Origin: Sphingomonadaceae bacterium 3R27E2-A | Lineage (GTDB): Bacteria; Pseudomonadota; Alphaproteobacteria; Sphingomonadales; Sphingomonadaceae | NCBI GenBank assembly: GCA_005503165.1 | Contig: SCNT01000002.1 | Location: 124,001 to 188,000 of the forward strand | DNA length: 64,000 bases | Direction of reading: 5' to 3' | Shown here: piece after piece, positions 20,917-61,070 of the stretch | Numbering within the stretch: position 1 is the first letter of the stretch | Layout of the letters: each line of letters starts with the position of its first letter | The notes under the pieces: generated by a model | What the model saw: only the letters and a program-made list of their open reading frames with translations | What the model was told of the DNA's origin: nothing | Database searches by the model: none | Made by a program: the position numbers and the translations under genes

Positions 20917-20958
20917 TCCGTATTATTACGAAGTGCGCCGACCGCGCGGGGCGCTAGC
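20917..20958 (+). promoter_or_regulatory. TNCGNA-type promoter element before the GNAT unit
   Basis: TCCGTATTATTACGAAG (20917-20933) followed by GCTAGC at 20953-20958 as a -10. The same dyad-like pattern (CCGTAT-N-ATTNCGNA) precedes the USP genes at 24408 and 46608. The centre is near -40 from the predicted start point. Confidence 0.5.
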
Positions 20959-20981
20959 CTGACTTCGCAAAGGAGCAGGCG

Positions 20982-21149
20982 ATGCCGAAACCCCCTCCGG
21001 TGACACCCTGTCGCGCGCACCCGCGCCGGACCGCCGTGAACCGGGCGCCGGCGGACCCGCGGCGCGAGCAGAACCGCATCGCGGGCACCCTCACCCTGCG
21101 CCCTTCCCCGCTCCGGCGGTCCGACCCCAATCAAGGAGACAGAGGATGA
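20982..21149 (+). CDS. possible 55-residue leader peptide gene overlapping the GNAT gene
   Basis: Small reading frame from ATG 20982, with AAAGGAG seven bases upstream, ending in TGA that overlaps the acetyltransferase ATG (ATGA). The product is rich in Pro and Arg (MPKPPPVTPCRAHPRRTAVN at its start) and matches nothing I know. Good ribosome site, fitting promoter and coupled stop/start support translation; amino-acid composition argues against a folded protein. It may serve as a coupling leader. Confidence 0.35.
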   Translation: MPKPPPVTPCRAHPRRTAVNRAPADPRREQNRIAGTLTLRPSPLRRSDPNQGDRG

Positions 21150-21691
21150 CGCTCACCAATGCGCCCGACGCCACACTGAGCGAGGCGACCGAGACCTGCC
21201 TGCAGACCCGCAGCGGCGTAGACCTTCGGCTCCGGCCGGTCGCCGACAGCGACGCGGATATTGTCAATCATTTCTTCGACGGCCTGACGGCGGACGATAT
21301 GCAGTTCCGCTTCCTGAGCGGCCAGTCGCACCTGTCGAGCGCCCAGCTCGCCGCGATGATCGGGGTCGATCACCGGCACCGCGAGCATCTGCTCGCGTTC
21401 GATCGGGCGACCTCGGAGCTGATCGCAAGCCTGCTGATCGCCGCAGACGAGGCCTTTGTGACCGCCGAGGTCGCGATTTCGGTCGCGCCGGCGTATAAGA
21501 CCCGCGGGGTCGGCTGGACGCTGCTCAACCACGCCGTCGATCTTGCCCGCGCCCGCGGTCTCAAGCGGCTGCGGTCGATCGAAAGCCGTGCCAACCGGGG
21601 CGCGATGGAGGTCGAACGGACGCTGGGGTTCAAGGCGAGCGACTATGATGGCGACCCCACGCTGGCGCTGCTCGAACTCGAGCTTCGCTGA
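21146..21691 (+). CDS. GNAT family N-acetyltransferase
   Basis: 181 residues. An N-terminal extension leads into LRPVADSDADIVNHFFDGLT, then the acetyl-CoA-binding core: beta-strand VAISVAPAYKTRGVGWTLL, with pyrophosphate loop RGVGWT, and helix LLNHAVDLARARGLKRL. The C-terminus is GFKASDYDGDPTLALLELEL. The family transfers acetyl groups to amines, and the DIVNHFFDGLTADDMQFRF start is like the GNAT domains fused to Pat-type protein acetyltransferases. The substrate is unknown. It is downstream of a stress-type promoter and next to an alcohol dehydrogenase in the same direction. Confidence 0.88.
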   Translation: MTLTNAPDATLSEATETCLQTRSGVDLRLRPVADSDADIVNHFFDGLTADDMQFRFLSGQSHLSSAQLAAMIGVDHRHREHLLAFDRATSELIASLLIAADEAFVTAEVAISVAPAYKTRGVGWTLLNHAVDLARARGLKRLRSIESRANRGAMEVERTLGFKASDYDGDPTLALLELELR

Positions 21692-21742
21692 CCTTCGCCG
21701 TCGGTTCGGCGCCCGACAGGCCTTCGGCGGGAGACGCTGCCC

Positions 21743-23054: not shown

Positions 23055-23480
23055 TCAAGGGTCGAGCGCCTGGCGATGCGCGCCGCTGCGTGTGAGACGT
23101 GTCACGGCGTCGACAAGCATATGCTCGCGCAGCGGCTTTTCGAGGACGAGTGCGAAGCCCGCCTCGCGCGCCCGCGCGCTCAATTCCCAGGACGGATAGG
23201 CCGAGATCAGGATGGCCGGCCCATCCCAGCCCTGCGCGCGCAGCGCGCCGAGCATTGCGATCCCGTCGCTGCTCTCGAGCCGGTAATCGGCGATCAGGCA
23301 GTCGGGCGCGGCGCGCGCCGCCTCGGCGAGCGCGGGACCGGCGGACGACCAGGCGTTGGCCGCAAATCCGCGTCCCTGCAACAGCAGCAGGAGCGAGCGC
23401 CGCACCGCCGGGTCATCCTCGACGATAAGGATGGTCGGCGGCGCCTCGCGCCCACCCGACCGGGCGATCAACATGTCCAT
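23055..23480 (-). CDS. receiver-only response regulator
   Basis: About 141 residues, one CheY-like receiver domain and no output domain. Acidic pocket VEDD (about 20-23), phospho-acceptor in LIADYRLES, conserved Ser in ILISAY, and Lys in LEKPLREH. It closely matches the receiver at 47557-47955 (shared VEDDP, RRSLLLLLxGRGF, PLREHxLVDAVxRL), so the two are paralogues. The start is uncertain: ATG 23480 is the first in a run (MDMLIARS) and no ribosome site is clear. It may act as a phosphate sink or partner for the FixL-type kinase; no kinase is adjacent. Confidence 0.85.
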   Translation of the reverse strand: MDMLIARSGGREAPPTILIVEDDPAVRRSLLLLLQGRGFAANAWSSAGPALAEAARAAPDCLIADYRLESSDGIAMLGALRAQGWDGPAILISAYPSWELSARAREAGFALVLEKPLREHMLVDAVTRLTRSGAHRQALDP

Positions 23481-23613
23481 GGCCGCGTTAGCAAAGCCAT
23501 TGGATGGCGGGCGGTTCCCGGCCATGTCCGCCGCCCGCTTCTTGTGAAACCCGCGGGCTCGCCCGGTCGGAGGCGCTAGCCCGAAGCCCGCGATCAGAAC
23601 GAGAGGCCATCGA

Positions 23614-24408
23614 TCAATGGCTCATCAGCAGGGGAAATTTGCTCGTGGAAAGCAGGTTCTTCGTGGTGCCGCCGAAGGTCTCGCGCAGCCGGCCGCGACC
23701 ATAAGCGCCCATCACGATATAGTCCGCACGGAACAGCTCGGCCTCGTCGGAGATCAGAATATCCGCGCGAAACGTGCCGATGTCGGTCGCGCGCACATTC
23801 GCCTTGATGCCGTGGCGCGACAAATAGGTCGCAGCATCCTCCGGCGCGACATGATCGGCAGGCCCTTGCGCGGTGAAGATCTCGACCTCCCTGGCAAAGG
23901 CGAGGAGCGGGAGCGCGGCGCGGAGCGCTGCCGCAGCCGAGGGACGGCCGTCCCATGCGACGAGCGCGCGCTCGAGTTCGAAGCGTTCGAGCGTCTCGGG
24001 CACCGCCAGCACGGGCGCGCTCGCACGCGCCACGATGCGGCTCGTTATGTCGCGCATGTCGGGCATCGCAAAGCCGTCGAGCGCGCGATTGAGGACGATG
24101 AGATCGGCGAGGTCGGCGGCGTCGAGCACCGCTTTCGCGATCTCGTCCGTCGCGTCGATCCAGCTCCAGCTGACATCCTCGCGCGACAGGCGGCCGCCGA
24201 TCACCGACTTGTTCTTCGTTTCGCTTTCGCGCTCGTCGAGAAGGACGACGGTTTCGGCGAAGCCGAACCCGTCGCCGGCAACGAGCGGATAGGGGGTGAC
24301 GTCGATACAGGTCAGATGGCCTTCGACCGCGCGGGTGATATCGAGCGCCGCCTGCACGCGGGCTTCCTGGCCTGCGTCGTCATGTATGAGCAACAGGATG
24401 TTCTTCAT
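23614..24408 (-). CDS. universal stress protein, tandem UspA type
   Basis: 264 residues from ATG 24408 (MKNILLLIHDDAGQEARVQA) with AGGAGACG upstream. The first UspA-like half is followed by a second with IVARASAPVLAVPETLERFE and GAYGRGRLRETFGGTTKNLL. The closest relatives in the window are 46608-47414 and 48266-49063, which share the whole layout, so these arose by duplication. The promoter element 24458-24480 is identical at 22 of 23 positions to that of the gene at 46608. Probable role in low-oxygen or stress survival. Confidence 0.92.
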   Translation of the reverse strand: MKNILLLIHDDAGQEARVQAALDITRAVEGHLTCIDVTPYPLVAGDGFGFAETVVLLDERESETKNKSVIGGRLSREDVSWSWIDATDEIAKAVLDAADLADLIVLNRALDGFAMPDMRDITSRIVARASAPVLAVPETLERFELERALVAWDGRPSAAAALRAALPLLAFAREVEIFTAQGPADHVAPEDAATYLSRHGIKANVRATDIGTFRADILISDEAELFRADYIVMGAYGRGRLRETFGGTTKNLLSTSKFPLLMSH

Positions 24409-24436: not shown

Positions 24437-24480
24437 CTTAGGTGTCGCCGGGCAAAGCCGATATGCGCAATCATACGGAT
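24437..24480 (-). promoter_or_regulatory. conserved USP promoter element and -10
   Basis: On the minus strand the element starts ATCCGTATGATTGCGC and ends ATATCGG (24480-24458). After 15 bases comes CCTAAG (24442-24437), the likely -10. Element and spacing equal those at 46538-46581. Confidence 0.65.
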
Positions 24481-25482: not shown

Positions 25483-25486
25483 TGTC

Positions 25487-26170
25487 TCAACCGGCCATGG
25501 CCGCCACTCGGCCGCGATCGTTGATCCGCACCGCGCGCCGCGAGGGCAGGTCGACGAGGCCGTCGCTGCGCATGCGGGTCAGCTGCCGGCAGGTCGTTTC
25601 GATCGTCAGCCCCAATATGTCGGCGATCTGCTGGCGGCCGAAGGGGAGTTCGAACCCGCCGGGCGTCGCGCCGGCGTCGGCGGGCAGCCGCGCTTCCATG
25701 TCGAGCAGGAAGGAGGCGACCTTCTCGGGCGCCGACTTGCGGCCGAGCAGCATCATCCAGTGCCGCGCGCGGTCGAGCTCGTCGAGCGTGCGGTGGAGCA
25801 GTTTCTGCTGAAGATGCGGATGACGGGCGGCGAAGTCGTCGAATTGCTGGCGATTGAAGATGCAGACCTCGGCGTCGGTCATCGCGGTCACGCGATACGG
25901 GCTTTGCTTGCCGAACGGCCGGCCGATGAAGTCCGACGGAAAGACAAGCCCGACAATCTGCTCGCGCCCGTCGGCGGTGGCGACGACGAGCTTGAGGACG
26001 CCCGACAGGACATTCGCGACGGTGGGAGCTTCGTCGCCTTCCCACAGCAGGGTATGTCCGGCCTTCACGCGCTGCCGCCGCCCCATGCGCCCGAGTTCGG
26101 CGGCTTCGTCGACAGCGAGGCTGGCGCAGATGGCGCGGCAGCGCACGGCGCAGGAAGCGCAATCGCTCAT
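25487..26170 (-). CDS. second FnrL-type Crp/Fnr regulator
   Basis: 227 residues from MSDCASC at 26170. Cysteines at 4, 7, 15 and 103 match the FnrL at 19280-19969, plus an extra Cys at 11. The effector fold and HTH GRQQIADILGLTIETTCRQL are near-identical, but the recognition helix reads ETTCR rather than ETTSR. The serine of FNR that contacts the TTGA half-site is thus a cysteine here, which may alter target choice or make binding thiol-sensitive. Cotranscribed with the L,D-transpeptidase. Upstream lies a TACGTA/TNCGTA element with a CTATC-like -10. Confidence 0.92.
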   Translation of the reverse strand: MSDCASCAVRCRAICASLAVDEAAELGRMGRRQRVKAGHTLLWEGDEAPTVANVLSGVLKLVVATADGREQIVGLVFPSDFIGRPFGKQSPYRVTAMTDAEVCIFNRQQFDDFAARHPHLQQKLLHRTLDELDRARHWMMLLGRKSAPEKVASFLLDMEARLPADAGATPGGFELPFGRQQIADILGLTIETTCRQLTRMRSDGLVDLPSRRAVRINDRGRVAAMAG

Positions 26171-26273
26171 TGCCGTGCGCCCGCAAGGCATGCGCGCACG
26201 GCGCTCAGGCCCGGTTCCGGGCGGTGGCCGCCATGGCGGCGGGATGGATGTGGCTGACCCCTCATGCGGTCCG

Positions 26274-26318
26274 GATAGCGAACCGCCGCGCCCAGGTGAC
26301 TACGCAACTGTACGTATG
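26274..26318 (-). promoter_or_regulatory. TACGTA-type promoter of the second fnrL
   Basis: CATACGTACAGTTGCGTA on the minus strand (26318-26301), followed by GCTATC at 26279-26274. The centre is near -42 from the inferred start. The half-sites TACGTA and GCGTA match the recurrent element of this region. Confidence 0.5.
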
Positions 26319-31391: not shown

Positions 31392-31432
31392 TACGCAATG
31401 ATCCGTAAGTATGTGCAGCCGCGCGACCCTAG
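31392..31432 (+). promoter_or_regulatory. orphan TNCGNA/GTAAGTA promoter ending at the IS remnant
   Basis: TACGCAATGATCCGTAAG (31392-31409) with GTAAGTATG continuing, and CCCTAG at 31427-31432 as a -10. The layout equals that of the USP and Hsp20 promoters, with the centre near -37. What follows is the end of an IS5-type remnant, so the gene it once served is missing. Confidence 0.55.
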
Positions 31433-31590
31433 GTCACCGACTCATTGTGTCGGAGCCAAATTCTGATGGAAGCGAGCTGGACGGAGGCTAGGAAGTTATC
31501 GTCGCGTTTGTCGTAGCGCGTGGCGACAGCCCTGAAGTGTTTGAGTTTGTTGAGGAAGCGCTCGATCAGATTGCGGTATCGAGAGGGGAA
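31429..31590 (-). mobile_element. remnant of an IS5-family transposase (C-terminal 50 residues)
   Basis: The frame encodes RYRNLIERFLNKLKHFRAVA, then TRYDKRDDNFLASVQLASIR, then IWLRHNESVT and a stop. This is the C-terminus of an IS5-family (DDE) transposase: the last catalytic Glu lies in the NLIERF block, and RxATRYDK is diagnostic. Nothing upstream resembles the rest of a transposase. The left part is fused to the truncated Pat-like gene, so an insertion was followed by deletion. The inverted-repeat end probably begins GGTCACCGACTC at about 31433, next to CTAG. Confidence 0.85.
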
Positions 31591-33836
31591 CGAGCTGAAC
31601 GCCGGTCGTCGTCGGAGCGCACGGGGCGCACCCGAAAGGCGAAACCGCTGTCGGTCACCGGGTCGCGGGCCCATCCCATCGGCGGCGCGCGGATGGCGAG
31701 CGGCGCCTCGGCCAGGGGCCGCTCTTCGAGCCGGACCCGCGCGTCGAGCGCGATGACCCCGGCCGGATCGGCGAGGAGCGGGTTGATGTCGAGTTCGGCA
31801 ATATCGGGCAGATCCTCGGCCATGGCCGAAAGCGCCTCGATCGTCGCCGCGATCGCATCGATGTCCGCTGCAGGCTCGGCGCGATAGCCCGCGAGCAGTT
31901 TCGAAATGCGGGTGGCCGCGATCATCGCGTGAGCTCCGGCATCGTCGAGGGGCGGAAGCGCCAACGCCTTGTCGGCCACGATCTCGACCGACGTCCCGCC
32001 TGCGCCGAACACGAGCAGGCGCCCGAAGACCGGATCGGTTGCGATGCCGGCGATCAGTTCGTGCGAATGAGGCCTGTCGATCATCGTTTCGACCGCGAAG
32101 CCCTCGATGCGCGCCTCGGGGTGCCGGGCGCGAACGCGGGCCTCCATCGCACAGGCGGCCCCAGCCGCGGCCTTGCGGCTCGCGAGGCCGAGGACGACGC
32201 CGCCGACGTCGGACTTGTGGCTGATATCGGGCGAGACCAGCTTCACGGCATAAGGGGGAGGAAGCCCGTCGACGGCATCGGGCATGACGTCCGGCGAGGC
32301 CGCGAACCGCGTGCGCACGACCGGAACGCCATAGGCCGCGAGCAATGCCTTCGCCTCGATCTCGCCGAGAAGCGTCCTGTTCGCCCTTCGCGCGCCGGCG
32401 ACGATCGCCCTCGCCTTGCCAACGTCCCGACGCAAGTCGCGGCGGCGCGCCGGTGCGTCGCGCAGCGCCGGACGCGCACGATCCGCCTCGAGCAAAAAGC
32501 CGAAGCCCTCGACCGCTTCCTGGGGCGTCGCGAACGACGGAATCCCGGCTTCCGCCAGAATCCGCCGCGCCGCTGCGCGATTGCCGTCTCCCAGCCAGCA
32601 GGCGATGACCGGCTTGGCGACCCCCTCTCGCCGCGCCGCACCGACCGCGCCCGCCACCGCCTCGGCGAAAGCCTCGGCCGGGGCCATGGCCGTCGGGCAA
32701 TTCATCACCAGCAGGGCGTCGACGCCTTGGTCCCCAAGCACGGGTCCGATGGCGTCCGCATATCGCGATGGGCCGGCATCGCCGACGATATCGACGGGAT
32801 TCGCGCGCGACCAACCCGGAGAAAGCCGGGAATCGAGCGTCGCGAGCGTCCCGGCCGACAGCCTCGCAAGTCCGGCAGGCGTGTCCTCGATCGCGTCGAC
32901 AGCGAGAATGCCGGCGCCGCCCCCGTTGGTGACGATGGCAAGACGGCCGCGCGGGCAGCGGCGATAGAAGGACAATATTTCCGCGGCGTCGAACAGCTGC
33001 GAAAGCGTGTCGACCGTGACGATCCCCGCGCGATCGAAGGCAGCGCGATAGACGTCCCACGTTCCGGCCAGCGTGCCGCTGTGCGACAATGCGGCCGCAG
33101 CAGCGGCGGGGGAACGCCCCGCCTTGATGGCGATGACCGGTTTGTTCGGCGCGGCGGCGCGAGCGGCGGACATGAACTTCGCGGCATCGCCGATTCCCTC
33201 GAGATAGAGCAATATGGCATCGGTCTGCGGGTCGACGGCAAACAGGTCGATGAGGTCGCCGACATCGACATCGGCCATGTCGCCGACCGAGACGATTGCG
33301 GAGAAACCGAGCGCCCGCGCGTCGGCCCAGTCCAGAAAGGCCGTCACCAACGCCCCGCTCTGCGATATCAGCGCGAGGCGGCCCGGCCGGGCCCGCGTCC
33401 GCGCGAATGTTGCATTGAGGCGGGCATGCGGCGCCATGATCCCGAGGCAGTTCGGCCCGACGATGCGAAGGAGGTGCGGTCTCGCCGCGTCGAGCATCGC
33501 CTGCCGCAGGCCGGAATCCGATGTGATGCCCGCACTGAGCACGACCGCGCACCGCGTGCCGAGAGCGCCGAGCTCGGATATGATCCCCGGCACCGTGGAC
33601 GCGGGCGTCATGATGATGGCAAGTTCAGGAGCGTCGAGAACCTCGCTGATCGAGGCGAACCACCGTGTTCCGGGAATATCGACCCGCTGAGGATTGACGA
33701 TAACGATGCTGCCTTCGAAGCCTTCTCGAAGAAGATTGCTAAGAACGAACGCGCCCAGCGACCCCGGTCTTCCGGACGCCCCCACCAGAAGAAGGCTTTG
33801 CGGTTTCAGAAGAAATTGGAGGTTTCGGATGGACAC
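31566..33836 (-). CDS. Pat-like acyl-CoA synthetase (ADP-forming type) truncated at its acetyltransferase domain
   Basis: 756 residues from GTG 33836 (SIRNLQFLLKPQSLLLVGAS). Order: CoA-binding domain (about 8-130), succinyl-CoA-ligase-like part (about 150-300) with phospho-His-type loop SHSGTLAG, and ATP-grasp domain (about 480-700, ISHKSDVGGVVLGLAS). It then begins FAFRVRPVRSDDD, where Pat/PatZ lysine acetyltransferases start their GNAT domain. Ten residues later the frame runs into IS-derived DNA and stops at TGA 31566. The enzyme therefore lacks the acetyltransferase part. It may still act as an NDP-forming acetate-CoA ligase or be inactive. Confidence 0.85.
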   Translation of the reverse strand: MSIRNLQFLLKPQSLLLVGASGRPGSLGAFVLSNLLREGFEGSIVIVNPQRVDIPGTRWFASISEVLDAPELAIIMTPASTVPGIISELGALGTRCAVVLSAGITSDSGLRQAMLDAARPHLLRIVGPNCLGIMAPHARLNATFARTRARPGRLALISQSGALVTAFLDWADARALGFSAIVSVGDMADVDVGDLIDLFAVDPQTDAILLYLEGIGDAAKFMSAARAAAPNKPVIAIKAGRSPAAAAAALSHSGTLAGTWDVYRAAFDRAGIVTVDTLSQLFDAAEILSFYRRCPRGRLAIVTNGGGAGILAVDAIEDTPAGLARLSAGTLATLDSRLSPGWSRANPVDIVGDAGPSRYADAIGPVLGDQGVDALLVMNCPTAMAPAEAFAEAVAGAVGAARREGVAKPVIACWLGDGNRAAARRILAEAGIPSFATPQEAVEGFGFLLEADRARPALRDAPARRRDLRRDVGKARAIVAGARRANRTLLGEIEAKALLAAYGVPVVRTRFAASPDVMPDAVDGLPPPYAVKLVSPDISHKSDVGGVVLGLASRKAAAGAACAMEARVRARHPEARIEGFAVETMIDRPHSHELIAGIATDPVFGRLLVFGAGGTSVEIVADKALALPPLDDAGAHAMIAATRISKLLAGYRAEPAADIDAIAATIEALSAMAEDLPDIAELDINPLLADPAGVIALDARVRLEERPLAEAPLAIRAPPMGWARDPVTDSGFAFRVRPVRSDDDRRSARSPLDTAI

Positions 33837-46339: not shown

Positions 46340-46537
46340 GGCCGCCTCCTCGCGATGCAAAAGCGGAGAGTGGCGGGAATGGACCGTTCGCGCCCTCCGT
46401 AAATCACCCTAGTCGAGCGTTGGGCGATGCACCTGTCACAAGGCGCCTTGAGAGGATTCGGGGGCCGAGCTCCAAATCGCGGCTCGCGGCGATCGCCGAC
46501 GAGCCATGATGCGTGCCGGGCAGCGGGGCGGCCTTCC

Positions 46538-46581
46538 ATCCGTATCATTGCGCATATCGGACGGTTCGCGCCGCCTCTAGC
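46538..46581 (+). promoter_or_regulatory. conserved USP promoter element and -10
   Basis: Element starts ATCCGTATCATTGCGC and ends ATATCGG (46538-46560), followed after 15 bases by a CTCTAG-like -10 (46575-46580). It is identical at 22 of 23 positions to the minus-strand element at 24480-24458. Confidence 0.65.
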
Positions 46582-47414: not shown

Positions 47415-47556
47415 GCGCCCGGACGGCCGTTGCCGGCGGCTGGGAAAAATATCGCCCGTTCCGGGCGAGGCATGGCGCGGTTACGCGGCGCGGGCCAGTC
47501 GGCGCCAGCGGCCTTGCATGCTCGATATACGAAATATTGATACCGGACGCCCGGCG

Positions 47557-49105: not shown

Positions 49106-49149
49106 TTACGTACTCTTCCTTACGGCGCGCCGTCTCTCCTTTGCCTAGG
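49106..49149 (+). promoter_or_regulatory. TACGTA/TTACGG promoter before small usp
   Basis: TTACGTACTCTTCCTTACGG at 49106-49125, then CCTAGG at 49144-49149. Element centre near -40 of the predicted start point. Same half-sites as at 61027 and 43799. Confidence 0.6.
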
Positions 49150-49206: not shown

Positions 49207-49626
49207 TTGTTCCGCAGCATAGTTATTGCCGTCGATCCCGACCGGCGTGCGGACGCCCGGCGACTGCTCGCGCTCGCCGCCGAACTTCGCTGCTGTTTCG
49301 GCGCGTCGCTGACGGTGGCAACGGTGCTGACCGATTGGAGCATGGTCACCCGCGCGGAGCGCTCGCCGGGTGCCGCGGATCGGCTTTTCGAAGTGGCCCG
49401 GGCAAGACTGGCCGCGCTTACCCACAAGATCCCGGACATGGACGACGCCGAGCATCGCGTCGAAACAGGGCCCGTCCACCGCGGCATCTTGCGAGCCGCG
49501 GCGCATGCCGACGCCGACCTCATCCTCCTCGCATCCTCCGCCTCGGGTTGGCGAGCGATGCTGTTCGGAACCGCCGCGCGGGTGGCGCGCCGCGCCGCCT
49601 GTTCGGTGTTCATCCTCCGTGGCTGA
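49207..49626 (+). CDS. single-domain universal stress protein
   Basis: 139 residues from TTG 49207 with GAGGAGGCC upstream. Single UspA fold: LFRSIVIAVDPDRRADARRL, ADADLILLASSASGWRAMLF and GTAARVARRAACSVFILRG. The G-2X-G loop is imperfect. It overlaps the ATPase gene by eight bases, so both are one operon under the TTACGTAC promoter. Confidence 0.85.
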   Translation: MFRSIVIAVDPDRRADARRLLALAAELRCCFGASLTVATVLTDWSMVTRAERSPGAADRLFEVARARLAALTHKIPDMDDAEHRVETGPVHRGILRAAAHADADLILLASSASGWRAMLFGTAARVARRAACSVFILRG

Positions 49627-52210
49627 GGCAGCGAGGAACCCGGACCGCGCCGCATCCACGCCAACCGCCCCCGGCCAACCGGTCCCCGGCCTGACAGAAA
49701 GCGACGCGCGGGCCAGGCTCGCTGCGGACGGCCCCAACGCGCTGCCAGGCGAAAGACGGCGGACGACGGTGCGGATATTCGTCGATGTCCTGCGCGAGCC
49801 GATGCTGGCCCTGCTTGTCGCGGGCGGCGCCATCTATTTTGCGCTCGGCGACTTGCGCGAAGCCCTGATTCTCGGGCTTCTCGCGGGACTCTCGGTCGGG
49901 ATCACCGTCCTCCAGGAGGCGCGAAGCGAAAGGGCCCTCGAAGCGCTGCGCGACCTCGCCAGCCCCCGCGCCATCGTCGTACGCGACGGCGTGCGCCAGC
50001 GGATTCCGGGATGCGAAGTGGTTCGCGGCGACCTGCTTGTGCTTGCCGAGGGCGACCGTGTCCCGGCCGACGGCTGGGTGATCGAAGCCGACGGTCTCCG
50101 TCTCGACGAATCGCTCCTGACGGGCGAGTCGGTACCGGTCCGCAAATCGGGCTGCGCGGCGCCCTTTCCCCCCGAGGCGCCGCGCGCTGGAAGCGATGAC
50201 CTCGCATATGTGTTCTCGGGGACCCTGGTCGTGGCCGGCAGCGGACTATCTGTCGTACAGGCCACCGGCGCGCGCAGCGAAATCGGCCGGATCGGCCAGT
50301 CGCTCGCCGCCCTCGAAATCGAAGCGCCGCGCCTGTATCTGCAGACGCGGCGCCTCGTCCTGCTATTTGCCGCCGGCGGCGCCGGTGCGACCCTGCTCGC
50401 GGTGCTTCTCTACGGGTTGCTGCGCAACAATTGGCTGGAGGGAGCGCTCGCCGGGATTGCGCTTGGCATGTCGCTGCTGCCCGAAGAATTTCCGGTCGTG
50501 CTCGCGGTCTTCCTGGCGATGGGCGCGATGCGATTGTCGCGCGTTCGCGTGCTCGCGCGCCGCGCCGCCGCGATCGAGACGCTCGGATCGATAACGGTGC
50601 TTTGCACCGACAAGACCGGTACGCTGACCCAGAACCGGATGTCGATCGCCGAATTGCGCCTGCCCGATGGGCCCAGCTGCGACGTTCGCCCGGACGCGGT
50701 TCTGCCGGAGAGCTTCCGGCCGCTCGTCGAACTCGGCCGATTGGCGAGCGCGCCCGAACCTTTCGATCCGATGGAGATCGCCTTTCATGACCTGGGGGCG
50801 CGCGGGGTCGCGGATGCCCGTTCCCCTCGCCCTACCGACGGCTGGCGCTTGCAGCACCGTTATCCGCTCGATCCCGCGCTGCTCGCGGTATCGCACCTGT
50901 GGGAGACGGGCGGCGGCGATCGGATCGTCGCCGCGAAAGGCGCACCCGAGGCGATCGCCGATCTGTGCCGCCTCGGTTCGGAGGCGCGAGCCTCGATGCA
51001 AGCGGCGGCCGATGCGATGGCGGCGCGGGGCCTGCGCGTTCTCGGCATCGCCGAAGCCGCCTGGCGCGGGATCGCGCCGCCGCCGAGCGCCCGTGATTTC
51101 GGCTTCGCCTTTCGCGGCCTTGTCGGCCTTCATGACCCGCTACGCCCCTCGGTCCCCGACGCTATGGCCCAATGCCGCAGCGCAGGCATCCATGTGGTGA
51201 TGATTACCGGCGATTATCCCGAGACGGCGCGCGCGATCGCGCGCGAGGCGGGAATCGCGGAAGGCGACGTCGTGACGGGCGACCGGCTCGCGTCGATGGA
51301 TGACGTCGCACTCGGCGCCTTCATTCGGCGCACCACGATCTTCGCGCGGATCATGCCCGAGCAGAAGCTGCTCATCGTCGCGGCTTTGAAGGCGGCGGGA
51401 GAGGTCGTCGGAATGACCGGCGACGGCGTCAACGATGCCCCCTCGCTCAAGGCCGCTCATATCGGGATCGCCATGGGCGGACGCGGCACCGATGTCGCGC
51501 GCGAGGCATCGTCGATCGTATTGCTTGACGATGATTTCGGGTCGATCGTCACCGCGATCCGCGTCGGGAGGCGGATCTTCGACAATCTGCGCAAGGCGAT
51601 GGGATTCATCGTGGCGGTGCATATCCCGATCGCGGGCCTGGCGATCGCGCCGCTGCTTTTCGGCTTTCCGATCCTGCTCGGCCCCATTCACATCGCGCTG
51701 CTCGAGATGGTCATCGACCCCGTCTGCTCGCTCGTCTTCGAGTCCGAGGTCGAGGAGCGTAACGTGATGCGGCGCCCGCCGCGTGAGCCCGAGAGCGCGC
51801 TCATGCCGCGCGCCCTCGTCGGCTGGTCGATCGTGCAGGGTGCAACCGCCGTCGCGGCGATCGCCGCGCTGCTCTGCTGGGGTTGGATTTCGGGTCTCGC
51901 GGAGGCGCAGTTGCGCAGCCTTGTCTATTATGCGCTGCTGACGATCGTTCTCGGTCTCGTGCTCGTCAATCGGTCCTTTTCGACTTCGCTGGTGCGCGCG
52001 GTGATGCGCCCGAACAGGGCGCTCGTCGCGGTAGTCTCGACCGTATTCCTGTTCATCGCGGTGGCGCAATATGTTCCGCCGGTCGCCGGGTCGTTGTCGT
52101 TCGCACCGCTCGGGCTCCGCGAGTTCGTCGCGCTGGCCGCAGTCGCGCTGGCCGTTCTCCTTCTGCTGGAAACCCTCAAGCGCGGGATCAACGTCGGCGG
52201 CGCCCGATGA
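49619..52210 (+). CDS. P2-type cation-transporting ATPase with PEEFP transport motif
   Basis: 863 residues from GTG 49619. TGES actuator (LLTGESVPV), phosphorylation motif CTDKTGTLTQNRM, hinge TGDGVNDAPSLKAAHIGIAM. Helix 4 reads LLPEEFPVVLAVFLAMGAMR where Ca2+ pumps have PEGLP, placing it in the bacterial PEEFP subgroup with unsettled ion choice. Ten helices. It is coupled to a UspA gene, reminiscent of the CtpF-type ATPase among DosR-regulated mycobacterial genes; the comparison is an inference. Probably exports a divalent cation under stress. Confidence 0.92.
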   Translation: MAEAARNPDRAASTPTAPGQPVPGLTESDARARLAADGPNALPGERRRTTVRIFVDVLREPMLALLVAGGAIYFALGDLREALILGLLAGLSVGITVLQEARSERALEALRDLASPRAIVVRDGVRQRIPGCEVVRGDLLVLAEGDRVPADGWVIEADGLRLDESLLTGESVPVRKSGCAAPFPPEAPRAGSDDLAYVFSGTLVVAGSGLSVVQATGARSEIGRIGQSLAALEIEAPRLYLQTRRLVLLFAAGGAGATLLAVLLYGLLRNNWLEGALAGIALGMSLLPEEFPVVLAVFLAMGAMRLSRVRVLARRAAAIETLGSITVLCTDKTGTLTQNRMSIAELRLPDGPSCDVRPDAVLPESFRPLVELGRLASAPEPFDPMEIAFHDLGARGVADARSPRPTDGWRLQHRYPLDPALLAVSHLWETGGGDRIVAAKGAPEAIADLCRLGSEARASMQAAADAMAARGLRVLGIAEAAWRGIAPPPSARDFGFAFRGLVGLHDPLRPSVPDAMAQCRSAGIHVVMITGDYPETARAIAREAGIAEGDVVTGDRLASMDDVALGAFIRRTTIFARIMPEQKLLIVAALKAAGEVVGMTGDGVNDAPSLKAAHIGIAMGGRGTDVAREASSIVLLDDDFGSIVTAIRVGRRIFDNLRKAMGFIVAVHIPIAGLAIAPLLFGFPILLGPIHIALLEMVIDPVCSLVFESEVEERNVMRRPPREPESALMPRALVGWSIVQGATAVAAIAALLCWGWISGLAEAQLRSLVYYALLTIVLGLVLVNRSFSTSLVRAVMRPNRALVAVVSTVFLFIAVAQYVPPVAGSLSFAPLGLREFVALAAVALAVLLLLETLKRGINVGGAR

Positions 52211-53216: not shown

Positions 53217-53276
53217 GTCCATCCTCCTTGCGCGAAGAGACTGCACGGCGGCGACGGGCTCCGGAATCAGCAATGC

Positions 53277-53284
53277 TACTTACG
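53277..53284 (-). promoter_or_regulatory. GTAAGTAG (FixJ-box-like) site
   Basis: Exact match to the published FixJ-type GTAMGTAG consensus on the minus strand, about 60 bases before the small gene at 53216. No good -10 at the usual distance. Confidence 0.35.
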
Positions 53285-53463: not shown

Positions 53464-54726
53464 TTATTCGATCCCGCAAAGCAGGCGCAGCCGCCATGCG
53501 GCGACCTGCACCGCCGCCCGCGCCTCGGCAAGGCGCGCGGTCGCGGCGATCGCCTCGCGCTCGGCGTCGAGTTCGGCGAGCGGCGGCCTGGCGCCCGAAC
53601 GCACCTCGAGCCGCGTGCCGCGCAGCGCCTCGCGCGCCGCCGCGTCTCCCTCGTGCGCGGCCTCCAGTCCGCGTTCGGCGCTTTCGAGGCCGCTCCACGC
53701 TTCGATCACCGCCTGCGTCACGTCGTCGCGCGCCTGCCGCAGCCGCGCCGCGCTTGCCGACCGCTGCGCCTGCGCCTCGCGCACGCGCGCGCCGCTCGCG
53801 CCGCTGTCGAAAAAGGTCCAGCGGCCGCGCACCCCGACGGTCATGCTGTCGGCGCGATAGTCGGGGAAAAACTGGTCGCGCACGCGCGCGCCCTCGGCAA
53901 AGACGCCGATCGTCGGGCGGGTCGAAGCCCTCGCCGCACGCACGCCGGCGTCGGCGCCCTCGGCCGCCGCGCCGGCCTGGGCGAGCATCGCATTTGCAGC
54001 GACCGCCGTCTCGACGGCCTCAGCGAGCGTCGTTGGAACCTCGGGGCGCGGCGGCAAGGGGGCGAGCACGCCGAGGGCTTTTCCGGTCAAGCGTTCCAGC
54101 CGCGCCTCCGCTGCCGCGAGCCGGCCCTGCGCCTGGACGAGGCCCGCCTGTCCTTCGGCGCGGCGCGCCCTCGCCTGCGCTACGTCGCTGCTCGTCGCGT
54201 CGCCGACATCGTAACGCAGCGCCGCGTGGCGCACGATCTCGTCGAGCGCAGCGACCAGCCCGGCATAACTCGCGACCAGTTCGCGCGCGGTGAGGACCTC
54301 GGCATAGCTCGACACCGTGGCGAGCGTCAGGTTCTGCCGCGCCATGTCCGCGCCGATCTTCGCCGCGCGATGGCCCGCGACCGCCTGATCGAGGGCCGAG
54401 GCGATCCGTCCGCCGGCATAAAGCGGATATTCGCCGACGAACTGGACCGCACTCGGCGTCACATCGTCGGCGGACAAGCCGAAATAGCCGCCCGGATCGA
54501 GCCGGCCATAACCGACGCTGCCCTCGATCCGCGCGGTCGGCCCCGCCGCCGCGCGCGCCTGCGCAACCCTCGCCTCGGCAGCGTCGGCGTCGGCGGCCGC
54601 CGCATCGAGCGCCGGTGAATGCGCGCGCGCATCGGCGATCGCCGTTGCCAGATCCTGCGCCAGCGCCGCGCGCGGCAGCGCGACCGCAACGAGGCTCGCC
54701 GCAATCAGGACGGTGACGCGCTTCAC
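53464..54726 (-). CDS. TolC-like outer-membrane efflux protein
   Basis: 420 residues from GTG 54726, with a signal peptide (VTVLIAASLVAVALPRAALA). Two TolC repeats: ALDAAAADADAAEARVAQAR with YPLYAGGRIASALDQAVAGH, and later GRWTFFDSGASGARVREAQA. The start overlaps the DUF2892 stop (GTGA). Probably the outer channel of the divergent MFP/RND pump at 56407-60689. Confidence 0.9.
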   Translation of the reverse strand: MKRVTVLIAASLVAVALPRAALAQDLATAIADARAHSPALDAAAADADAAEARVAQARAAAGPTARIEGSVGYGRLDPGGYFGLSADDVTPSAVQFVGEYPLYAGGRIASALDQAVAGHRAAKIGADMARQNLTLATVSSYAEVLTARELVASYAGLVAALDEIVRHAALRYDVGDATSSDVAQARARRAEGQAGLVQAQGRLAAAEARLERLTGKALGVLAPLPPRPEVPTTLAEAVETAVAANAMLAQAGAAAEGADAGVRAARASTRPTIGVFAEGARVRDQFFPDYRADSMTVGVRGRWTFFDSGASGARVREAQAQRSASAARLRQARDDVTQAVIEAWSGLESAERGLEAAHEGDAAAREALRGTRLEVRSGARPPLAELDAEREAIAATARLAEARAAVQVAAWRLRLLCGIE

Positions 54727-54926
54727 CGAAAGGCGGCCCCCGCGCGCAGCCCGAGCCGCTTGAAGAGCATCGCGGCGGGGCAAAATCCGGTGAAGCTCGC
54801 CTGGATCAGATTGAGTCCGGCAAAGGCGGCGAGCGCGATCCAGTACGGATGAACGAACCAGGCGAGGCAAACCCCCAGCAGCACGACAAAACCGGCGAAG
54901 CGCAGCACGGCACGATCGAGATTCAT
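54723..54926 (-). CDS. DUF2892 small membrane protein (YgaP C-terminal-like)
   Basis: 67 residues, two helices (VLRFAGFVVLLGVCLAWFVH; ALAAFAGLNLIQASFTGFCP) followed by AAMLFKRLG. This is the DUF2892 pattern found at the C-terminus of YgaP rhodanese and in sulfur-regulated operons. It lies between sulfide reductase and TolC-like genes in one operon. Confidence 0.85.
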   Translation of the reverse strand: MNLDRAVLRFAGFVVLLGVCLAWFVHPYWIALAAFAGLNLIQASFTGFCPAAMLFKRLGLRAGAAFR

Positions 54927-56406: not shown

Positions 56407-57474
56407 ATGCTGAGCCTGTTCCGCCGTCCGCGATATACGGGAATATCCGCACCCGCCCTCGCGGCTCTCGCGCTGACGCTATCCGCGTGTGGCGGCAAGA
56501 CGCCGCCGCCGGCCGAGCGAGCCGTGGAGACGAAGGGCGAAACGCTGGTCCTTCGACCTACGACGGTCACCGAGTGGAAAGATGTCGGCGCGCTGGTGAC
56601 GAGCGTCGACATGGCCGACGCGCGGGCGCGCATTCCCGGCGTCCTCGAAAGCCTGACCGTCCGCGAGGGCGATCTTGTCCGCAAGGGGCAAGTGATCGGC
56701 CGCGTCGTCGACAGCAGGCTCGGCTATGAAGGCGCGGCTTATGGCGCGCAGGCGGCCGCGGCGACGGCGCAGGTCGCGCAGGCCGAGGCCGAGCTGGCGC
56801 GCGTCAGATATCTCCACGCCCACGGCGTCTACGCGCAGGCGCGGCTCGATCAGGCCGAAGCCGCGGCACGCGCCGCGCGCGCGCAGGTCGCCGCGGCGAA
56901 GGCGCAGCAATCGGCTGTCGGCGCGGTCGCGGGACAGGGCGCGGTGATCGCTCCATCCGCAGGCCGCGTGTTGATCGCGCAGGTGCCGGCGGGCTCGGCG
57001 GTTGCGGCGGGCACGTCGATCGCGACGATTACCTCGGGCCCGATGGTGCTGCGCCTCGAGCTTCCCGAAACGCTGGGATACAAGGTTCGTGTCGGAAGCG
57101 CCGTCCTCGCGACCGGGCTTGCCGAGGACAAGGCGGCCGCGGCGCCGCGCGCGACCGTCGGACGCGTCTATCCCGCGGTCAGCGGCGGGCAGATGTCGGC
57201 CGACGTCTCGCTTCCCGGCCTCGCCAGCGCAATGGTCGGCCGCCGCGTCACCGCGCGCGTCGCGGTGGGCGAACGGCAGGCGCTCGTCGTGCCGCGCCGC
57301 TTCGTCGAAACCAGCTACGGCATCGATTATGTGACGATCCCCGTGGCGGGGAACGCCCCGTCGCGCGTCCCGGTCCAGATCGCGCCGTCGGACGATCCGG
57401 CGCGCGTCGAAATCCTGTCCGGCGCCGCCAGCGGCGACACGCTGGTCGCGGCGCAGGCGGGGCCGCGCCCATGA
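56407..57474 (+). CDS. RND periplasmic adaptor lipoprotein (MFP)
   Basis: 355 residues. Lipoprotein signal ending in the lipobox LSAC (residue about 36), so the protein is lipid-anchored. Lipoyl half 1: GVLESLTVREGDLVRKGQVI; hairpin of Ala/Gln/Arg helices (about 105-170); lipoyl half 2: APSAGRVLIAQVPAGSAVAA. Its end overlaps the RND permease start by four bases. Partner of the permease and of the TolC-like protein encoded divergently. Confidence 0.92.
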   Translation: MLSLFRRPRYTGISAPALAALALTLSACGGKTPPPAERAVETKGETLVLRPTTVTEWKDVGALVTSVDMADARARIPGVLESLTVREGDLVRKGQVIGRVVDSRLGYEGAAYGAQAAAATAQVAQAEAELARVRYLHAHGVYAQARLDQAEAAARAARAQVAAAKAQQSAVGAVAGQGAVIAPSAGRVLIAQVPAGSAVAAGTSIATITSGPMVLRLELPETLGYKVRVGSAVLATGLAEDKAAAAPRATVGRVYPAVSGGQMSADVSLPGLASAMVGRRVTARVAVGERQALVVPRRFVETSYGIDYVTIPVAGNAPSRVPVQIAPSDDPARVEILSGAASGDTLVAAQAGPRP

Positions 57475-60400
57475 GCCTCGGCATCTCCGGTCGTCTGACG
57501 CGCGCGACGATCCAGAGCCCGCTGACGCCGCTGATGCTGCTCGCGGCGATCCTCGTCGGGCTGCTCGCGATTCTGACGATACCGCGCGAAGAAGAGCCGC
57601 AGATCAGCGTGCCGATGGTCGACCTGCTGGTCGCCGCGCCCGGCCTGTCGGCGAGCGATGCGGTCGAACTGGTCGGCAAGCCGCTCGAGACGATCGTGAA
57701 GAGCGTCGACGGCGTCGAGCATGTCTATACGCAGGCGGAGGATGACGGGGTGATGGTCACCGCGCGCTTCCTGGTGGGGTCCGACCCCGACGATGCCGCG
57801 ACGCGCATCAACGAGCGACTGTCGGCGAACATGCACCGCATCCCGGCGGGCATCCAGCCGCCGCAGGTGACGGTGCGCGGGATCAGCGACGTGCCGATCG
57901 TCGTGCTGACGCTGTCGCCGAAACCCGGAGCGCGCGGCGAATGGACGGGGCAGGCGCTCCACGCGCTCGCGACCCGGCTGCGCACCGAGGTGGCGAAGGT
58001 CGACGATGTCGGGCTGACCTTCATCGCGGGCGGGCAGGAGGAACAGCTTCGCGTCACGCCCGACCCCGCGAAGCTCGCCGCGCATGGGGTGTCGCTCGGC
58101 GCGCTGATGGACGCGGCGGCGCAGGCGAACCGCAGCTTTCCGCTCGGCACGGTGCGCGAAGGCGGGGCGGCGACGGCGGTGGTTGCGGGGCAGACGGTGC
58201 GCAGCGCCGCCGAGCTGGCCACCATCACCGTGCGCGCCGCGAACGGCAGCCCCGTCTATCTGCGCGACGTTGCGACGGTGACGCAGGGGCCGGGCGAGGC
58301 GCAGGCGCGCGCGTGGCGGTGGGCAAAGGCCGAAGCCGGACATTGGGCGATGGCGCCCGCAGTCAGCCTCGCCGTCGCCAAGCGTTCGGGCGCCAACGCG
58401 GTCAACGTCTCGCACGCCGTCGTCGCGCGCGTGGAGGCGCTGCGCGGCACGCTGATCCCGGCCGAAGTCGAGGTCGCAGTGACGCGCAATTACGGCGAAA
58501 CCGCCAACGAAAAGGCGAACGAACTCATCTTCCACCTCGGCCTGGCCACCGTGTCGATCGTCATCCTGATCGGCTTCGCGATCGGCTGGCGCGAGGCGGC
58601 GGTGACCGCAGTGGTGATCCCGACGACGATCCTGCTCACCATGTTCGCCTCGAACCTGATGGGCTTCACGATCAACCGCGTCAGCCTGTTCGCGCTCATT
58701 TTCTCGATCGGCATCCTCGTCGACGACGCGATCGTGATGATCGAGAATATCGCGCGCCACTGGGCGATGGCGGGCGCGCGCAGCCGGATCGACGCGACGG
58801 TCGATGCGGTCGCCGAGGTCGGGAACCCGACGATCGTCGCTACGCTCACGGTGGTTGCGGCGTTGCTGCCGATGCTCTTCGTCTCCGGGCTGATGGGCCC
58901 CTATATGGCCCCGATCCCGATCAATGCCTCGGCGGCGATGCTCTTTTCCTTTTTCGTCGCGGTGATCGTCGCGCCATGGCTGATGGTGCGCTTTGCCAGA
59001 AATGCGTTGGCGCACGGCCACGACGACCATGCGACCGGCGGCAAGCTGGGTGTGCTTTACGGCCGCGTCGCGGCGCGCGTGATCCGCGACCGCAAGAGCG
59101 CGCGCCATTTCCTGATCGCGGTCGGCGTCGCGACGCTCATTGCCTGCTCGATGTTCTATTTCAGGGCGGTGACGGTGAAACTGCTCCCCTTCGACAACAA
59201 GTCGGAGGTGCAGCTCGTCCTCGACATGCCCGAAGGCACCTCGCTCGAAACCACGGGACGCACGCTCGACGCCGCCGCGGCGATTGCGCGGCGATTGCCC
59301 GAAGCGCGCTCGATGGAGGCTTATGCGGGCACCGCGGCGCCGTTCAATTTCAACGGCCTCGTCCGCCACTATTTCCTGCGCAGCCGTCCCGAGATGGGCG
59401 ACGTGATGGTGACGCTCGCGCCCAAGGACGAGCGCGACCGGTCGAGCCACGCGATCGCGCTCGACCTGCGTGAGAAGCTGCAGAAGGCGTTGCCGCTGCC
59501 ACCGGGCGCGTCGATCAAGGTCGTCGAGACGCCGCCGGGGCCACCGGTGCTCGCGACGATGCTCGCCGAAATCTACGGCCCCGACGAGGCGACCCGGCGC
59601 AGGACCGCCGAACAGGTCGAGAAATTGTTCCGCACCATCCCCTATGTCGTCGACGTCGACAACAGCTTCGGCGCGCCGCGCCCACGGCTGCGCCTCGTCC
59701 CCGACCGCGCGCGGATGGATGCCTATGGCATATCGGAACGCCAGCTTTTCGACAGCATCGGCGCGCTGCTCGGCGGGCAGACCGTCGGCTATGCGCCGCG
59801 CGGGCAGGGGCGCGACCCGCTGCCGATCCGCATCGCGCTAGATCAGGCGCAGCGGACGTGGAGCGCCGGCCTCGCCGCGACCCCGGTCGCGAGCATGGGG
59901 CCGGGCGGCCGGCTCGTGCAACTGGGCGAGGTCGTCGAGGCGCGCGAGGAAAGGGGCTCGGCGACGCTGTTCCGCCGCAACGGCCGCGCCGCCGACATGG
60001 TCACCGCCGAGCTGGCGGGCGATTATGAGGCGCCGATCTATGGCATCTTCGCCGTCGACGACGCGATCGAGGCGTTCGACTGGAAGGCGCACGGGATGAC
60101 GAAACCCGTCATCCGCTTCAACGGCCAGCCCGATAACGAACAGGTGCCGACGCTGCTCTGGGATGGCGAGTGGGAGATCACCTGGGTGACCTTCCGCGAC
60201 ATGGGCGCCGCCTTCATGGTCGCGCTGCTCGGCATCTATGTGCTCGTCGTCGGGCAGTTCCGCAACTTCAAGGTCCCGTTCGTCATCCTGACCCCGATCC
60301 CCCTGACGCTGGTCGGCATCGTGCTCGGGCACATGCTGTTCGGCGCGCCTTTCACCGCAACCTCGATGATCGGCTTCATCGCGCTCGCGGGGATCATCGT

Positions 60401-60689
60401 GCGCAACTCGATCCTGCTCGTCGATTTTATCAACCATGCCAAAGGGGCAGAAAAGCCGCTGCGCGACACGTTGCTCGAGGCCGGGATGATCCGTTTCAAG
60501 CCGATCGTGCTGACCGCCGCGGCGGCGATGATCGGCGCGGCGACGATCCTGACCGACCCGATCTTCCAGGGTCTCGCCCTATCTTTGCTGTTCGGGCTTG
60601 CCTCCTCGACACTGCTGACCGTGCTGGTTATTCCCGCGATCTACATCGTCCTGCGCGACGATGGCCGCGAAGGGACTCTCTCTCCATGA
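57471..60689 (+). CDS. RND efflux permease (second pump)
   Basis: 1072 residues. Start LTRATIQSPLTPLMLLAAIL, helix block with ILVDDAIVMIENIARHWAMA (proton-relay Asp pair), and a C-terminal repeat with IVRNSILLVDFINHAKGAEK. The N-terminal IPREEEPQISVPMVDLLVAA places it in the cluster of RND permeases (often annotated acriflavin resistance) found beside sulfide/ArsR genes. Its end overlaps the arsR-like start by four bases. The exported compound is unknown; sulfide-linked products are suggested by the neighbours. Confidence 0.93.
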   Translation: MSLGISGRLTRATIQSPLTPLMLLAAILVGLLAILTIPREEEPQISVPMVDLLVAAPGLSASDAVELVGKPLETIVKSVDGVEHVYTQAEDDGVMVTARFLVGSDPDDAATRINERLSANMHRIPAGIQPPQVTVRGISDVPIVVLTLSPKPGARGEWTGQALHALATRLRTEVAKVDDVGLTFIAGGQEEQLRVTPDPAKLAAHGVSLGALMDAAAQANRSFPLGTVREGGAATAVVAGQTVRSAAELATITVRAANGSPVYLRDVATVTQGPGEAQARAWRWAKAEAGHWAMAPAVSLAVAKRSGANAVNVSHAVVARVEALRGTLIPAEVEVAVTRNYGETANEKANELIFHLGLATVSIVILIGFAIGWREAAVTAVVIPTTILLTMFASNLMGFTINRVSLFALIFSIGILVDDAIVMIENIARHWAMAGARSRIDATVDAVAEVGNPTIVATLTVVAALLPMLFVSGLMGPYMAPIPINASAAMLFSFFVAVIVAPWLMVRFARNALAHGHDDHATGGKLGVLYGRVAARVIRDRKSARHFLIAVGVATLIACSMFYFRAVTVKLLPFDNKSEVQLVLDMPEGTSLETTGRTLDAAAAIARRLPEARSMEAYAGTAAPFNFNGLVRHYFLRSRPEMGDVMVTLAPKDERDRSSHAIALDLREKLQKALPLPPGASIKVVETPPGPPVLATMLAEIYGPDEATRRRTAEQVEKLFRTIPYVVDVDNSFGAPRPRLRLVPDRARMDAYGISERQLFDSIGALLGGQTVGYAPRGQGRDPLPIRIALDQAQRTWSAGLAATPVASMGPGGRLVQLGEVVEAREERGSATLFRRNGRAADMVTAELAGDYEAPIYGIFAVDDAIEAFDWKAHGMTKPVIRFNGQPDNEQVPTLLWDGEWEITWVTFRDMGAAFMVALLGIYVLVVGQFRNFKVPFVILTPIPLTLVGIVLGHMLFGAPFTATSMIGFIALAGIIVRNSILLVDFINHAKGAEKPLRDTLLEAGMIRFKPIVLTAAAAMIGAATILTDPIFQGLALSLLFGLASSTLLTVLVIPAIYIVLRDDGREGTLSP

Positions 60690-60994
60690 CCAAGCCGACC
60701 GACCTCTCGATCCTCAAGCGCGATGCGCATGAAATGGCGGGTTATCTGAAGCTGCTCGCGAACCCCGAGCGCCTGCTGATGCTGTGCCAGATGGACGAGC
60801 GCGAGGTATCGGTCGGCGAACTGACCGAGATTTCGGGGCTTTCGCAGTCTGCGGTGTCGCAGCATCTGGCGCGCTTCCGGAAACAGGGAATCGTGTCGCT
60901 GCGCGGCGAGGCACAAACGCGCTACTACACATTGGCCGACCCGAAGATGCAGCGGATCATCGCAGCGCTATGCGAGGCATGCAGCGGAGCATAG
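60686..60994 (+). CDS. ArsR-family repressor, BigR/SqrR-like, persulfide-sensing candidate
   Basis: 102 residues from ATG 60686, overlapping the permease stop. wHTH: LKLLANPERLLMLCQMDERE, VSVGELTEISGLSQSAVSQH, LARFRKQGIVSL. Cysteines at 34 (LMLC), 96 and 99 (LCEAC) sit as in BigR/SqrR, where one Cys in the HTH and one near the C-terminus form a (tetra)sulfide bridge that releases DNA. It lacks the metal-binding ELCVCDL motif of ArsR proper. It probably represses both divergent operons through the ATATTAG repeats. Confidence 0.88.
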   Translation: MTKPTDLSILKRDAHEMAGYLKLLANPERLLMLCQMDEREVSVGELTEISGLSQSAVSQHLARFRKQGIVSLRGEAQTRYYTLADPKMQRIIAALCEACSGA

Positions 60995-61026
60995 TCGGCA
61001 GGGGCATCCCGGCCAAGCGCGCCGCG

Positions 61027-61070
61027 CATACGTAACAGTCCTGATACGGGGCTTCCGGCCCGCCTGCTAA
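61027..61070 (+). promoter_or_regulatory. TACGTA/TACGG promoter of the AMP phosphorylase operon
   Basis: CATACGTAACAGTCCTGATA (61027-61046) continuing to CGG, then TGCTAA at 61065-61070. The inferred start point is 61076-61078, two to four bases before ATG 61080, so the message should be near-leaderless; no ribosome site is seen. Confidence 0.6.

Follow-up and report, generated by a model that had tools for sequence, protein, structure and literature searches.

We describe a recurrent 16-bp element in a 64,000-nucleotide (nt) stretch of DNA, the window, from Sphingomonadaceae bacterium 3R27E2-A (contig SCNT01000002.1, positions 124,001 to 188,000). The element is very probably the FixJ box, at which the phosphorylated form of FixJ, the response regulator encoded at 39085 in the same window, would bind and activate promoters of the surrounding gene island. 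This reading is drawn from sequence: the motif, its spacing to the -10, its clustering, its conservation, its co-occurrence with FixJ and its likeness to a defined Sinorhizobium meliloti site. The likely targets in the island are three universal stress protein (USP) genes and genes for a FixK/FnrL-like regulator, Hsp20, a GNAT operon, a P-type ATPase, RND efflux and thymidine phosphorylase, together with the slot behind fixJ (Table 1).

Definition and distribution of the element

The first-pass annotation had reported a recurrent dyad-like element at ten places in the window. Nine of these (20917, 24464, 26301, 31392, 43801, 44744, 46539, 49107 and 61029) resolve to one 16-bp imperfect dyad which, written toward the gene, reads T(A/C)CGTA-N4-T(G/C/A)C(G/T/C)NA, with two half-sites on either side of a 4-base spacer. 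It comes in two flavours, TCCGTATnATTGCGnA (e.g. 46539) and TACGTAnnnTTCCYnA (49107, 61029, 43801). The tenth place, 37092 (37098), was ruled out by its 3-bp spacer and a score of 4.6 bits in the matrix described below; better boxes lie upstream of fixL in 6 of 10 relatives' loci examined (G005, G007, G024, G001, G003 and G015).

Pairs of the form TNCGNA-Nk-TNCGNA were counted in the window and in Markov (dinucleotide) shuffles. Seven matches were found at k = 4 and four at k = 3, each against 1.1 in the shuffles, and the remaining spacings (k from 0 to 13) gave 0 to 2. Single TNCGNA is not enriched in the window (226 observed, 263 expected).

A matrix was prepared from 18 distinct 16-mers, each with a TA 21-23 nt downstream. 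Since circularity was to be avoided, these were taken from relatives' genomes only and none from the own genome (G000). The training sequences score 14.1-23.8 bits. Above 11.5 bits the window holds 21 oriented matches, one place matching on both strands being counted twice, against a shuffle mean of 2.2 and maximum of 9 (60 shuffles). At 14.8 bits or more there are 15 places; 13 were accepted, and 34504 and 53267, which have no -10, were classed as doubtful and left out of the count. A matrix from aligned sites had been proposed as a check in the first-pass annotation, and the one built here from other genomes does predict the window sites, adding four accepted ones (39706, 44686, 48198 and 56338) that had been missed.

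The TA of the -10 falls at an offset of 22 or 23 from the site in 10 of the 13 accepted cases (P ~2e-11, allowing either orientation), or in 10 of 15 once the doubtful pair is included. CTAG or CTAA is seen at seven of these ten; the others have CTAT (26301), ATAG (44686) and TACA (39706). Counted back from the -10, the predicted site centre falls near -42.5, in agreement with the earlier suggestion that the element works from near -42. By sequence, the arrangement of a class II promoter, a -10 preceded by a site with its centre near -41.5, is found at these 10 of 13 sites. The spacing recurs in held-out data: across 21 named loci, TA stands at offset 23 in 13 of 55 oriented sites, and each of the remaining offsets between 10 and 39 accounts for no more than four. 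Nine aligned usp promoters from the genus (46539 type) are invariant in 14 of 16 box columns, and also in the downstream TATCG, the -10 TA and the ribosome site.

In the 4.5-Mb genome, TMCGTANNNNTNCNNA has 13 matches, of which 10 lie inside the window (binomial P ~1e-16 for the concentration), so that the genome search suggested earlier finds matches that are not randomly spread. The reversed control has 14 matches genome-wide: the total is not raised, the concentration is. The three matches outside the window, read in the printed orientation, all lack TA at offset 22-23. All five matches to TACGTANNNNTCCYNA are in the window (control, 1), as are all five to the strict pattern TMCGTANNRTTRCGNA, while the first exact pattern, TACGTANNNNNNCCGTA, has no match. 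The loose pattern TNCGNANNNNTNCGNA has 57 matches, against 24 for its reversed control, and is too weak to be used alone because this is only about twofold. In other stretches of the own genome (L046-L049, 72.6 kb) two sites exceed 13.5 bits, and both lack TA at 22-23.

Among 60 genomes of the genus, the own genome included, 13 have at least two strict-motif matches, and all 13 belong to the 17 whose FixJ is at least 87% identical; no genome among the 43 without a close FixJ has two (Fisher 5e-10). Seven genomes have a single strict match and no close FixJ, and four of these seven share the 16-mer TCCGTAAGGTTGCGAA. That 16-mer recurs in G003, G010, G013, G018, G033, G062 and G082, four of them without a close FixJ, and may belong to conserved coding sequence.

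A box with TA at 23 lies 55-82 bp upstream of a usp-like gene in 7 of 26 loci examined (L123, L132, L134, L136, L141, L142 and L153), which come from Sphingomonas, Sphingorhabdus and a Caulobacter metagenome-assembled genome. The training genome L121 provides an eighth such case.

Eight sphingomonad plasmids encode FixLJ (L216-L223); seven are typed as conjugative and one as non-mobilizable. In the five annotated plasmid loci, 23 of 25 sites are intergenic; intergenic bases make up 10-18%, a slightly high figure since the gene tables omit one edge gene of L218, two of L219 and five of L220, none covering a site. The sites precede genes for USPs, mgtA-type and other P-type ATPases, BON proteins, an MBL hydrolase, ppsA, succinate-semialdehyde dehydrogenase and phbB. 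The three further loci hold two places (L221), five (L222) and none (L223), six of the seven intergenic by eye. The FixLJ loci of L221 and L223 adjoin copper-resistance genes, and on the L219 plasmid fixJ, a receiver gene and a gene for a helix-turn-helix (HTH)-only protein stand in a row.

FixL, FixJ and the reader of the boxes

The fixL product has the order expected of a FixL, a heme-type PAS followed by HisKA and HATPase, and is similar in length to annotated plasmid homologues. Its PAS matches the FixL heme domain 1dp6 (E 3.8e-51) and retains the RHD and IIGIGR stretches, with an aligned histidine that we take to be the heme ligand; the whole protein matches FixL kinase chimeras. A mechanical open reading frame (ORF) of 1297 aa over fixL starts at 35202; no Pfam model matches the part of it before ~37203 at E 1e-4, and 35202-37202 may be non-coding in the fixL frame.

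The fixJ ORF overlaps that of fixL by 11 bases. FixJ carries a receiver with the phospho-acceptor Asp (VLLDVRMP) and a GerE domain, and matches full-length FixJ 5xso (E 3.5e-51). Its recognition helix (11 residues) is identical to the characterised DNA-reading helix of S. meliloti FixJ. The FixJ site of the S. meliloti fixK promoter, TAAGTAATTTCCCTTA, quoted in the passages of PMC4999443 at hand, reaches 14.5 bits (random P ~1e-5), near the bottom of the training range; in the matrix test 136 of 500000 permutations of its own letters compare with it. In pSymA this site lies 38-59 bp upstream of the extrapolated start of the fixK alignment. A box upstream of a FixK/FnrL-like gene is likewise present in the window (26301) and in relatives.

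In the mechanism that we infer, FixL would phosphorylate FixJ at low oxygen, and a FixJ dimer would bind the dyad, overlapping the -35 region. Bound FixJ would then recruit RNA polymerase to a mostly CTAG or CTAA -10 (class II activation), at start points predicted from that -10. The FixK/FnrL-like regulator would form a second tier through TTGAY-N4-RTCAA boxes; FNR/FixK boxes are found in the window at 10475, 18491, 20863 and 36693, and fit a FixJ to FixK to FNR-box cascade.

Several observations weigh against assigning the boxes to FixJ. The right half-site is highly variable, three of the 13 accepted sites (43801, 44744 and 48198) have no -10 in place, and the -10 at 39706 fits only on the weaker strand (9.6 bits). 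Co-occurrence counts within the genus are non-independent because the island is shared by descent, and four genomes with a close FixJ (G015, G030, G073 and G074) have no strict match, G015 and G030 having a near-match. Named loci with a FixJ of 67-68% identity (L126-L129) hold 0-1 site, and plasmid locus L223 none; L216 has three sites, near its own shuffle mean (1.5 oriented matches). On plasmids the spacing is poorer, with TA at 22-24 in only 8 of 25 sites of the five annotated loci and at 22-23 in none of seven in the three further ones. Near a second FixJ of the own genome (L046, L047) a single site passes 13.5 bits; it scores 16.7, lies ~13.6 kb away and has no -10. The FixJ of the 5xso chain differs at 2 of the 11 helix residues. 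Finally, TAAGTAATTTCCCTTA ranks only third by score in a 20-kb pSymA stretch, where the top site lies between fixL and a USP gene; two diverged Sinorhizobium alleles lack this top site, so that a high matrix score alone is not proof. An ancestral link between FixJ and USP genes in Sinorhizobium, considered for the strong site L201:4964, was rejected on the same ground, the site being absent from both alleles and the adjoining FixK box retained.

The earlier annotation had named FixJ and the HTH-only protein encoded at 39779 as possible readers. FixJ is upheld by its co-occurrence with the boxes, by the S. meliloti site match and by the identical helix. The 98-aa protein shares ~50% identity with the output domain of the FixJ encoded in the window and differs from it in the 11-residue recognition helix. 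We hypothesize a feedback role for it. Its gene stands in the slot behind fixJ, which holds fixT in Sinorhizobium and a single-domain-receiver-like ORF in ~14 of 22 named loci (by eye). TACGTA occurs within ~50 nt behind fixJ in 14 of 22 named loci, also counted by eye, and TACGTA-RCGAC in eight of the 22 (two of identical sequence) as well as in the window. Both proteins might read the motif, FixJ as activator and the 39779 protein, whose own gene would be controlled from a FixJ box, as a competitor at these sites. Its GerE domain without a receiver would suit a competitor, as would the box at 39706 with its -10-like TACAAG directed toward 39779 and the occupants of this slot elsewhere. However, that box is stronger on the other strand (18.0 versus 9.6 bits) and the helix residues differ; we consider such shared reading unlikely.

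That the 39779 protein is the main reader, in place of FixJ, is disfavoured and appears very improbable. Its likeness to the FixJ output domain is joined by the presence of a homologue behind fixJ in 11 of 13 Sphingopyxis loci compared. But among 30 named loci an HTH-only protein was found in just three (L121, L218 and L219), a count that covers the fetched DNA with 10-20 kb flanks and could miss a distant copy, and boxes with the same spacing occur in named loci where none was found (L123, L132, L134, L141, L142 and L153). The differing helix and the fit of the S. meliloti FixJ site to the matrix also speak for FixJ.

A constant distance to the -10 would be expected of a sigma factor element too, and the boxes could in principle belong to an alternative sigma factor or an unlinked regulator that happens to serve the island. 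A dyad of ~1.5 helical turns at -42.5, clustering beside fixLJ, co-occurrence with FixJ and the match to a biochemically defined FixJ site leave this a shade less credible still. That the pattern arose by chance, or from a biased reading of AT-poor DNA, is a view to which the roughly twofold genome-wide excess of the loose motif might point; it can be practically discounted given the matrix, the held-out spacing test, the clustering in the genome, the intergenic bias on plasmids and the conservation of usp promoters. We retain FixJ as the most probable reader.

Sites and genes in the window

Table 1. Predicted FixJ boxes, neighbouring genes and regulators in the window (positions of the whole stretch; distances to the -10 counted from the box)
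Feature	Position	Strand	Score (bits)	-10-like sequence	Gene or remark
Predicted FixJ box TCCGTATTATTACGAA	20917-20932	+	21.0	CTAGCCT, 21 nt after	55-aa ORF (20982) overlapping GNAT gene 21146-21691
Predicted FixJ box TCCGTATGATTGCGCA	24464-24479	-	17.0	CTAAGG, 22 nt after	USP, likely 23614-24408 (-); ATG 55 nt downstream
Predicted FixJ box TACGTACAGTTGCGTA	26301-26316	-	22.1	CTATCC, 22 nt after	FixK/FnrL-like, 25487-26191 (-); FnrL/FixK model matches below model cut-offs
Predicted FixJ box	31392-31407	both	18.3/16.5	CTAGGT on +, CTAAAC on -	
Predicted FixJ box TACGTATTGGTCCCTA (-), TAGGGACCAATACGTA (+)	39706-39721	both	18.0 on -, 9.6 on +	TACAAG on +, 22 nt after	Slot behind fixJ
Predicted FixJ box TACGTACTGTTCCTGA	43801-43816	+	22.4	none	
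Predicted FixJ box TACGTAGGTTTCCCGA	44686-44701	-	17.0	ATAGGC, 22 nt after	Hsp20, ORF 44074-44679, likely start near 44565
Predicted FixJ box TACGGATAAATGCGAA	44744-44759	+	16.3	no TA at usual offset	Side of BON-domain gene, start uncertain
Predicted FixJ box TCCGTATCATTGCGCA	46539-46554	+	18.5	CTAGCTT, 22 nt after	USP gene 46608-47414
Predicted FixJ box TCCGTAGCATTGCGAA	48198-48213	+	18.9	no TA at usual offset	USP gene 48266-49063
Predicted FixJ box TACGTACTCTTCCTTA	49107-49122	+	23.6	CTAGGG, 22 nt after	Cation P-type ATPase, ORF 49370-52210
Predicted FixJ box TACGTAATATTAGCAA	56338-56353	+	17.2	CTAGGA, 22 nt after	HlyD-type and RND efflux genes 56407-60689
Predicted FixJ box TACGTAACAGTCCTGA	61029-61044	+	20.5	CTAACT, 22 nt after	Thymidine phosphorylase 61080-62645, PRPP synthase-like 62558-63553
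Doubtful box TCCGTAACTTTCCGGT	34504-34519	-	14.9	none	Within possible ORF
Doubtful box TAAGTAGCATTGCTGA	53267-53282	-	15.8	none	
FNR/FixK box TTGACCCTGATCAA	20863-20876				Adjoins 20917 FixJ box; faces USP gene 20001 to ~20810 (-)
fixL	37203-39095	+			DUF4118-type N-terminus, PAS, heme-type PAS, HisKA, HATPase; 630 aa from inferred start
fixJ	39085-39699	+			Response regulator, REC and GerE
Stand-alone GerE/HTH protein, 98 aa	39779-40075	+			Candidate feedback protein, not main reader

Eight relatives have a near-identical 20917 promoter, and an identical 16-mer to the 26301 box is likewise found in eight. The bidirectional box at 31392 has no clear gene on either side. Adjoining it, a minus-strand frame at 31440-31600 resembles the C-terminal end of a transposase (RNLIERFLNKLKHFRAVATRYDKRDDNFLASV), and the box may have lost the gene that it formerly controlled on this side.

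The box at 43801 is probably a relic in the window. Relatives have the same box (G012) or nearly the same (G010) upstream of a fixK-like gene, and 29 bp around it are kept at 93% identity to G012, but the window has no fixK there; at 43780-44080 the start of a fixK may have left a trace (E 0.05). The FixK-like gene that the window does have (25487) shares 95-97% identity with its counterpart in another island type. The orphan box, the possible trace and this resemblance make the island look mosaic.

Single-domain receiver-like proteins are encoded at 23055-23525 (-), 47518-47955 (+) and 45944-46360 (-), the last a weak match to the receiver model; two of the genes adjoin USP genes. Elsewhere in the own genome, contig C13 carries a second FixLJ pair (54230-54838; L044, L046, L047) with a FixJ 66-67% identical and, as neighbours, homologues of a further P-type ATPase, alcohol dehydrogenase and thymidine phosphorylase.

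Known systems and significance

Both the FixJ box and the FixLJ-FixK cascade have been described before. With the cascades of S. meliloti and Caulobacter the window shares a heme-PAS FixL, FixJ and a box before a fixK-like gene, and with S. meliloti also a small gene behind fixJ (there fixT). In the passages of PMC4999443 at hand, the FixJ site is a 16-18 bp imperfect dyad, as in the window; sites stand upstream of four Rhizobiales genes (nifA, fixK, fixX and a proline hydroxylase gene) and, in Caulobacterales, consistently only at fixK, and the FixLJ orthologues named are from these two orders. The window, by comparison, has 13 accepted boxes, mostly before stress-survival genes. Set against those passages, the novelty would lie in a direct FixJ regulon that is large, is clustered next to fixLJ and also occurs on plasmids. 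Among the matches listed by searches of the open-access literature, with most subscription journals outside their scope, there was no sphingomonad FixJ box or FixJ regulon.

Sphingopyxis granuli TFA, of the genus to which the window probably belongs, has a described FnrN/FixK regulon and anoxic response (PMC7713065, PMC6472365). According to the parts of these papers available, USP genes are induced without oxygen and a USP promoter has an Fnr site centred at -41.5; Fnr boxes are described there, and the main text of PMC7713065 names FixLJ once and FixJ never. In the low-oxygen-activated (lxa) locus of Burkholderia cenocepacia and in the DosR/DevR regulon, USPs likewise cluster with other genes that respond to low oxygen by increased expression, as covered in the sections of PMC6127331 at hand; the likeness is one of analogy only, and locus tags in that source place FixLJ apart from the lxa genes.

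Caulobacter FixT is, in the available text of PMC7078487, a single-domain receiver under FixLJ with a 4-Cys Fe-S motif. Receiver-like ORFs stand behind fixJ in many sphingomonad loci and beside USP genes in the window. Unlike Caulobacter FixT, the window receivers at 23055 and 47518 have only one and two Cys, respectively, and are thus not of the Caulobacter Fe-S type.

Tentatively, and as a possibility we rate somewhat below even, the window may be a self-contained, portable low-oxygen survival regulon, with sensor, regulator and nearly all promoters in ~40 kb. It would be of a kind also found on conjugative-typed sphingomonad plasmids, would have a FixJ-box feedback slot holding either a receiver or, as competitor, a receiver-less copy of the DNA-binding domain of FixJ, and would parallel the mycobacterial dormancy regulon while having been assembled independently of it.

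FixLJ is the oxygen switch of nitrogen-fixing rhizobia, with a direct regulon of fixK and very few genes in the portions of PMC4999443 at hand. If FixJ reads the boxes, a sphingomonad FixLJ with a dozen dedicated promoters (for USPs, a small heat-shock protein, ion pumps and efflux) would run a survival programme directly, and this programme would sit in pollutant-degrading bacteria and on their plasmids. The matrix makes this prediction testable for each promoter in turn.

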